Assembly: GCF_900142125.1 (NCBI RefSeq)
Contig: NZ_FQZT01000003.1
Location: 248,001 to 312,000 of the forward strand
Origin: Malonomonas rubra DSM 5091
Lineage (GTDB): Bacteria > Desulfobacterota > Desulfuromonadia > Desulfuromonadales > Geopsychrobacteraceae
DNA length: 64,000 nucleotides
Direction: 5' to 3'
The notes under the pieces are model-generated. The model was not told the origin of the DNA. It saw nothing but the letters and a program-made list of their open reading frames with translations, and ran no database searches. Shown here piece by piece: positions 47,578 through 48,081 of the stretch. Each line of letters begins with the position of its first letter. Positions within the stretch are counted from its first letter, which is position 1. Position numbers and translations under genes: made by a program.

Positions 47578-47604
47578 AAGCTGCCTCCAATGTTGGGGCA
47601 GCTT
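47578..47604 (-). terminator. Terminator of the selenoprotein gene
   Basis: On the minus strand AAGCTGCC / GGCAGCTT with an 11-nt loop is followed by TTCTTTT. It lies 24 nt past the stop and before the dinB start. Confidence 0.75.
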
Positions 47605-47627: not shown

Positions 47628-47966
47628 CTACTTGACCCAATCCTGATACATATCCAGGTTGAACCCGACGACATAATCGTTGCCAACACGGTAAGTCGGT
47701 GCCCGCAGGTTGCCACTTGGGCCCATAACATTTTTAAGTACCATCTCTTTTTCTGCAGCGACATCCTCGAATCGCTGCACCTTCTTGCCCTTTGCCACGC
47801 TGATCGAATCCGCACCCTGTATCATTGCCCATGCTTGATCGGCGTCGATCCGCTCTTTGCGCGCATCGGTCACTTCATCCGTCTCTACTTTGGCGTTCTC
47901 AAGAAACTCTTGAGCATTTTTACAGGACGTTCAGCCCTTTCTCAAGTAAGCCCAATCAATTTTCAT
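47628..47966 (-). CDS. ArsC-family selenoprotein (in-frame UGA read as selenocysteine)
   Basis: 112 residues if the TGA at 47933-47931 is read as Sec. Reading from the ATG at 47966 (GAAGGAGGTTGTG upstream) gives MKIDWAYLRKG-U-TSCKN, so Sec12 and Cys15 form a UxxC redox motif at the start of a thioredoxin/ArsC-like fold. The rest includes RIDADQAWAMIQGADS, APTYRVGNDYVVGF (cis-Pro region) and ends DMYQDWVK. An ordinary ORF call starts only at 47873 and loses the active site. A perfect hairpin CTCAAGA/TCTTGAG begins 16 nt after the UGA. Function: probably thiol-dependent redox; arsenate reduction is not shown. Confidence 0.87.
47898..47914 (-). promoter_or_regulatory. Putative bacterial SECIS hairpin
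   Basis: In the mRNA, CUCAAGA-GUU-UCUUGAG forms a 7-bp stem with a 3-nt loop starting with G, 16 nt downstream of the UGA. Position, small loop and the G in the loop agree with the general bacterial SECIS form recognised by SelB. Confidence 0.7.
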
Positions 47967-48026
47967 CACAACCTCCTTCGGTTCTAGTTCGAGAAAAGAT
48001 ACCACACCCGGAGGCCAAAACAAAAA

Positions 48027-48057
48027 CAGGCACGGTCACATTTTGCAACCGCGCCTG
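48027..48057 (-). terminator. Terminator of the FKBP gene
   Basis: Minus strand CAGGCGCGG / CCGTGCCTG (one mismatch) with a 13-nt loop, then TTTTTGTTTT, 25 nt after the FKBP stop. Confidence 0.8.
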
Positions 48058-48081
48058 CAATATCAGCCTGAACTTCTCTGC

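Follow-up and report, generated by a model that had tools for sequence, protein, structure and literature searches.

Selenoproteins resembling the arsenate reductase ArsC have been recorded several times. The table entries of a 2006 survey include a 'distant ArsC homolog' selenoprotein in Desulfuromonas acetoxidans and an 'ArsC-like' one in Desulfotalea psychrophila (PMC1794560). A 2008 ocean survey describes in its table an 'Arsenate reductase 2' (cd03032) with a UxxC motif, for which it counts 42 selenoproteins and 238 Cys homologues (PMC2398784). The name 'Arsenate reductase-like protein', again with UxxC, is given under COG1393 in a 2022 review (PMC9312934) and, as family NF041106, in a table of prokaryotic selenoproteins in a 2026 review, which cites PMC2398784 (its reference 61) for it (PMC13188914). 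The parts of these reviews and surveys that cover the family state no function for it. Here we describe a gene of this kind from Malonomonas rubra DSM 5091. It lies in a stretch of 64,000 nucleotides, referred to below as the window.

Reading frame, family and translation across the UGA

The first-pass annotation of the window had reported, giving no strand, an ArsC-family frame readable only with UGA as selenocysteine (Sec). The gene lies on the minus strand, with the following features.

47628..47966, minus strand: selenoprotein gene of family NF041106 (ArsC_rel_Se_1), 112 amino acids and a TAG stop, from frame reading and profile match
47971..47978, minus strand: Shine-Dalgarno sequence AAGGAGGT, 4 nt upstream of the ATG, from the sequence
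47931..47933, minus strand: UGA codon 12, predicted Sec, from the TGA found at the motif in the homologues
47922..47933, minus strand: active-site motif U-T-S-C (Sec12, Cys15), from the read-through frame and the alignment

As had been annotated, an ATG (47966-47964) behind a good ribosome-binding site opens a frame that meets TGA at codon 12, within U-T-S-C, and runs on in frame to the TAG at 47630-47628. When TGA was read as Sec, a protein of 112 residues with U at position 12 was obtained. The only reading of this frame in the ordinary ORF listing is one of 81 amino acids from a GTG (47873-47628); it begins past the active site, as the first-pass annotation had pointed out, so that the ordinary ORF call cuts the active site off.

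The read-through protein scored 129.1 bits against the NCBIfam model NF041106, 'ArsC family (seleno)protein' (cut-off 85), residues 3-107 covering positions 1-107 of the 107 in the profile. The UxxC motif of that family is present as UTSC at residues 12-15 when TGA is taken as Sec. The Spx/MgsR model TIGR01617 gave 24 bits, below its cut-off of 75.05, and TIGR00014 (arsC, cut-off 106.05 bits) did not match the protein at E up to 1. In Pfam, three weak matches were seen below the cut-offs, two of them glutaredoxin-like. The gene is a further member of an already catalogued selenoprotein family.

Homologues were collected from the genomes of relatives, a survey of the phylum and a scan of named genomes. 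The named-genome scan gave 36 loci, mostly titled Desulfuromonadales, Desulfobulbaceae or other deltaproteobacteria, with Desulfopila aestuarii DSM 18488 and Desulforhopalus vacuolatus DSM 9700 among the carriers; 30 of the 36 matches of the phylum survey and all 30 of a 60-genome search were also taken. Altogether 96 loci were examined, 84 of them distinct in sequence. Every one of the 84 has TGA at the motif, with U-x-x-C in 82 and U-x-x-S in 2. The alignment check of position 12 proposed at first pass thus came out in favour of Sec; an unrelated residue or a late start in relatives had been named as evidence against it, and the long start and the TGA are common to them. Eighty of the 84 sequences were used for the alignment (A1), leaving out L012, which has an additional TAG at codon 20, L102, which is truncated at a contig end, and L066 and L067, which are below the family cut-off. 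All 80 match NF041106 at E up to 0.001. The invariant columns include W5, Y7, R9, G11, position 12, R88 and P90, and Cys15 is nearly invariant.

The extra TAG of L012 lies inside the hairpin described below; the locus (the same gene as in L073) comes from one metagenome-assembled genome, and is either a broken copy or a sequence error.

Selection on the part before the UGA was estimated from 29 sequences of the same order and from 76 sequences (the 77 with Sec at position 12, L102 excluded, minus L012). For codons 2-11, pN was 0.067 and pS 0.758 in the former set (pN/pS 0.088), and 0.073 and 0.79 in the latter (pN/pS 0.092). Because of these low ratios, we take the part before the UGA to be translated in frame. 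Two simpler readings of the locus must be judged against this. The true product could be the 81-residue protein from the GTG at 47873, which is what an ordinary ORF call returns, the part before the TGA being a leader or leftover. The mostly synonymous variation of codons 2-11 (pN/pS 0.09), reflecting strong selection at the protein level, argues against a start past the active site, as does the retention of the motif TGA throughout the 84 distinct sequences. Moreover, at position 32, where this GTG lies, GTG is the codon in only 16 of the 40 sequences that have Val (77 examined), and the first strand and active site of the predicted model would both be missing from the short form. This reading is very improbable. 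The other, a pseudogene with a chance stop, has nothing in its favour beyond the in-frame stop itself; it runs against the same conservation of the TGA and the strong purifying selection upstream of it, and is extremely unlikely. We conclude that the gene is almost certainly real, with an internal UGA that is apparently decoded as selenocysteine.

Downstream hairpin and selenocysteine machinery

A perfect 7-bp hairpin starting 16 nt past the UGA had been annotated, and it is found as described, with stem arms at 47914-47908 and 47904-47898.

47898..47914, minus strand: bacterial SECIS-like hairpin, 7-bp stem, GUU loop, 23 nt from UGA to loop, from folding, codon constraint and covariation

The 2026 review gives, among its criteria for bacterial SECIS elements, a stem of 4-16 bp, a loop of 3-9 nt with G in loop position 1 or 2, a loop 16-37 nt after the UGA and an energy at or below -7.5 kcal/mol (PMC13188914). 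Scored in this way, as the first-pass annotation had suggested, the hairpin fits in stem (7 bp), loop (3 nt, G first) and spacing (23 nt); its fold energy, -7.4 kcal/mol over 40-45 nt and -13.1 over 57 nt, is borderline against the limit of -7.5. Compared with shuffled sequences the fold energy was not unusual (z 0.17) and did not single the hairpin out. The case for the hairpin rests on its conservation.

Synonymous resampling of the window sequence produced a stem of 7 bp or more in 18 of 20000 trials. When the same 80 sequences as in the alignment were resampled, stems of 6 or more were present in 28 of the 80, against 3.1 expected, and the individual p for the stem was under 0.05 in 30. 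When only Watson-Crick pairs were counted and the SECIS loop rules applied, 20 of the 80 homologues had no stem longer than 4 bp. Codon choice was counted in the 77 sequences with Sec at position 12 (L102 excluded). Glu20 is GAG in 60 of 60 and Glu23 in 40 of 42, while Glu31, outside the stem, is split evenly (24 GAA, 24 GAG); Leu22 is CTT in 50 of 67, compared with 7 of 69 for Leu8, also outside the stem. The synonymous diversity follows the same pattern: in the 29 same-order sequences pS was 0.24 for codons 19-23, against 0.76 for codons 2-11, 0.54 for codons 13-18 and 0.73 for codons 24-36. The contrast was weaker over all 76 rows (0.52 for codons 19-23, against 0.76 for 13-18 and 0.74 for 24-36).

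For covariation, 52 of 81 rows (50 distinct) were picked by eye for the same hairpin register, a choice that favours structure. In these, 97.1 % of 350 cells pair, compared with a shuffled mean of 93.3 % and 34-62 % for a slid partner, and two-sided changes occur in three of the seven stem pairs, 10 cells in all. The further pair types, one of five covariation measures, were reached by 76 of 500 shuffles. The covariation supports the hairpin more than it proves it. In other lineages the hairpin seemingly lies about 3 nt nearer to the UGA with a GGC-type loop, as judged by eye; in 5 of the 80 rows a loop of 3 nt lies 20 nt past the UGA. Rfam returned nothing over the window at gathering thresholds, and an e-value search gave two weak matches below the gathering scores, to nuoG RNA and a snoRNA. 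Rfam SECIS_1 found nothing in the whole genome and was equally silent in control genomes, so this search is uninformative.

The first-pass annotation had proposed searching the genome for sel genes, whose absence would have told against Sec. They are present in Malonomonas rubra: selA (587.9 bits, cut-off 267.9), selB (352.7, cut-off 242.25), selD (358.1, cut-off 125) and tRNA-Sec (69.9, cut-off 47) were all found, with selA, selB and selD adjacent on one contig (C29). Only matches over cut-off were counted here, weaker ones occurring in many control genomes. The organism's own selD (L036, minus strand, within 1501-2475) is itself a Sec form, its in-frame TGA lying in U-A-A-K; SelD is tabled with UxxK in the 2022 review (PMC9312934).

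Distribution of the family and genomic setting

The gene was present in 30 of the 60 genomes that comprise Malonomonas rubra and its relatives, each copy with one TGA inside and one copy also with a TAG. It was seen in 29 of 37 genomes of the same family, Malonomonas rubra included, and in 1 of 23 from the other families of the order. Since selB is over its cut-off in 56 of the 60 genomes and tRNA-Sec in 53, a lack of machinery does not explain the absence of the gene from half of them.

In wider surveys, NF041106 matches over the cut-off were found in 28 of 395 genomes of the phylum, in 54 of 277 genomes of the class (56 places), in 13 of 22 genomes of a second class and in 30 of 148 of a third. 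These amount to 112 distinct places (13 seen only in the phylum survey, plus 56, 13 and 30), each with one in-frame TGA and one also with a TAG. The TGA was read directly at the motif for the 84 distinct sequences and four more, and for the other survey places it was taken from the listing of in-frame stops, which in the genome searches were counted within the matched range only. No Cys form was seen among the over-cut-off matches in the four surveys within the phylum. Below the cut-off, the phylum and third-class surveys gave matches both with and without TGA.

To our knowledge, Cys homologues exist for nearly all selenoproteins. NF041106 in this phylum could nevertheless be a Sec-only branch of the ArsC/Spx fold, and might form an obligate Sec redox enzyme or switch whose chemistry Cys cannot replace. 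We hold this to be doubtful, because the 2008 ocean survey, under a looser definition of homologue, tabulates so many Cys homologues (PMC2398784). Should Cys forms prove truly missing in the phylum, NF041106 would lend itself well to testing what Sec achieves beyond Cys.

Some side observations were made during these searches. One genome (G464) has three over-cut-off copies on three contigs and a listed contamination of 7 %, which may mean either duplication or a mixed assembly. L066 and L067 (match ranges L066:1501-1785 and L067:1501-1803) represent a second type of ArsC/Spx-like selenoprotein; their motif is U-T-T-C, the TGA falls at codon 11, and they have a hairpin resembling the one above. 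Scored at 80 bits, L066 is over the Spx/MgsR cut-off of 75.05, but its 39.4 bits against NF041106 fall short of the 85 required; L067 narrowly misses the Spx model, at 72.7 bits. The TGA of L066 sits just before its matched range and is thus absent from the in-range stop count. More below-cut-off matches with one TGA were seen in the third-class survey (148 genomes).

The neighbours of the gene, likewise on the minus strand, are a DinB-type Y-family DNA polymerase (PF00817, 46407-47552) and an FKBP-type prolyl isomerase (PF00254, 48082-48519). The spaces between hold the following.

47578..47604, minus strand: terminator-like stem of 8 bp with an 11-nt loop and then a run rich in T, between the gene and dinB, by eye and folding
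48026..48058, minus strand: terminator-like site between the FKBP gene and the selenoprotein gene, from a terminator scan

The scan gave two sites in 601 bases over both strands (0.7 expected), the other being the SECIS-like hairpin read on the plus strand; it takes loops of 3-8, and the stem at 47578..47604 is outside its reach. The site at 48026..48058 suggests that the FKBP gene and the selenoprotein gene are transcribed separately, and the terminator-like sites on both sides suggest a single-gene transcription unit. FKBP was matched in 4 and DinB in 5 of the 96 loci, which include copies of the window and of one another; the flanks of many loci do not exceed 1.5 kb. When 36 loci and the window were compared (counting ORFs of at least 80 amino acids and clusters spanning 4 loci or more, functions unannotated), no shared partner gene was seen. 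With frames that overlap the gene set aside, the largest neighbour clusters covered 4-5 loci, and none of the recurring neighbours in the loci compared points to a substrate.

Predicted fold, proposed function and comparison with known systems

The AlphaFold2 model of the protein had a pLDDT of 95.4 and a pTM of 0.88. With VIA-align 2, the nearest chains were Spx, an ArsC-related protein and YffB (Z 8.9-8.6, rmsd 2.6-2.8, 86-89 residues); six chains were at Z 8 or more, placing the model in the ArsC/Spx/YffB fold. Foldseek also placed Spx first, with a moderate best TM of 0.57, and gave four matches at E up to 0.001. The first-pass name 'ArsC family' is thus right for the fold, but does not extend to the arsenate reductase model TIGR00014.

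We propose that SelB, loaded with Sec-tRNA, binds to the hairpin a short way past the UGA, whereby selenocysteine would be inserted at position 12. The product would fold in the thioredoxin-like manner of the ArsC/Spx/YffB type. Sec12 would then be the attacking selenolate, with Cys15 as the resolving residue, and the protein would cycle between a reduced selenol/thiol and an Se-S bond, by analogy with other UxxC oxidoreductases. We consider it very probable that the gene encodes an NF041106 selenoprotein of 112 residues of this description, with hairpin-directed insertion of Sec12 by SelB, the ArsC/Spx/YffB-type fold and a Sec12/Cys15 redox cycle. What has been computed is the frame with its conservation, the constraint on the hairpin, the presence of the machinery genes and the fold prediction. 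The Sec-dependent thiol oxidoreductase of ArsC fold put forward in the first-pass annotation is supported by the homology, the TGA conservation, the hairpin and the Sec machinery, its redox activity being presumed; we infer a reductase rather than a regulatory role.

Two more specific functions were weighed. The protein might be a selenium-dependent arsenate reductase: it has an ArsC-type fold, its Sec presumably occupies the position of the catalytic Cys of ArsC, chains titled arsenate reductase (3fz4, 3rdw, 3f0i) appear at Z 7.8-7.4, and the genome has no TIGR00014 match at E up to 0.001, so that no classical enzyme was found. However, TIGR00014 leaves the protein unmatched even at E up to 1 and is absent from the nine families matched by members of the alignment at E up to 0.001, and E. 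coli ArsC itself (1sk0) reaches a Z of only 6.3, compared with 8.9-8.6 for Spx and YffB. We regard this function as quite unlikely. The second is a redox regulator of the Spx kind, which would bind RNA polymerase and sense through its Sec. Spx has a CxxC redox switch, and Spx chains top both fold lists and the profile search of solved structures. Against this, the Spx/MgsR score is far below its cut-off (24 bits against 75.05), and a fold in common proves no function; such a regulator is rather unlikely. The redox enzyme of the NF041106 type, as proposed above, remains the preferred reading.

Among solved structures, the Spx, YffB and ArsC-related proteins (3ihq, 1rw1, 3gkx) share the fold of the gene product over 86-89 residues, but with 15-22 % identity, and the gene product stays under the Spx/MgsR cut-off; where it has Sec, these three presumably have Cys. 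With the NF041106 family the likeness is complete in the whole-length match over the cut-off, the UxxC motif and the single Sec, and nothing was found that sets the Malonomonas rubra gene apart; its membership of this named selenoprotein family is well supported. 'Arsenate reductase 2' is, by its table description, likewise a UxxC ArsC-like selenoprotein, and differs in the Cys homologues counted there, 238 against none among the over-cut-off NF041106 matches here (PMC2398784). The proteins of the 2006 survey are, by their table entries, likewise ArsC-like selenoproteins of deltaproteobacteria, and some relatives of the present gene are titled Desulfuromonas or Desulfuromonadales; the survey's proteins are likely to be identical with NF041106 (PMC1794560).
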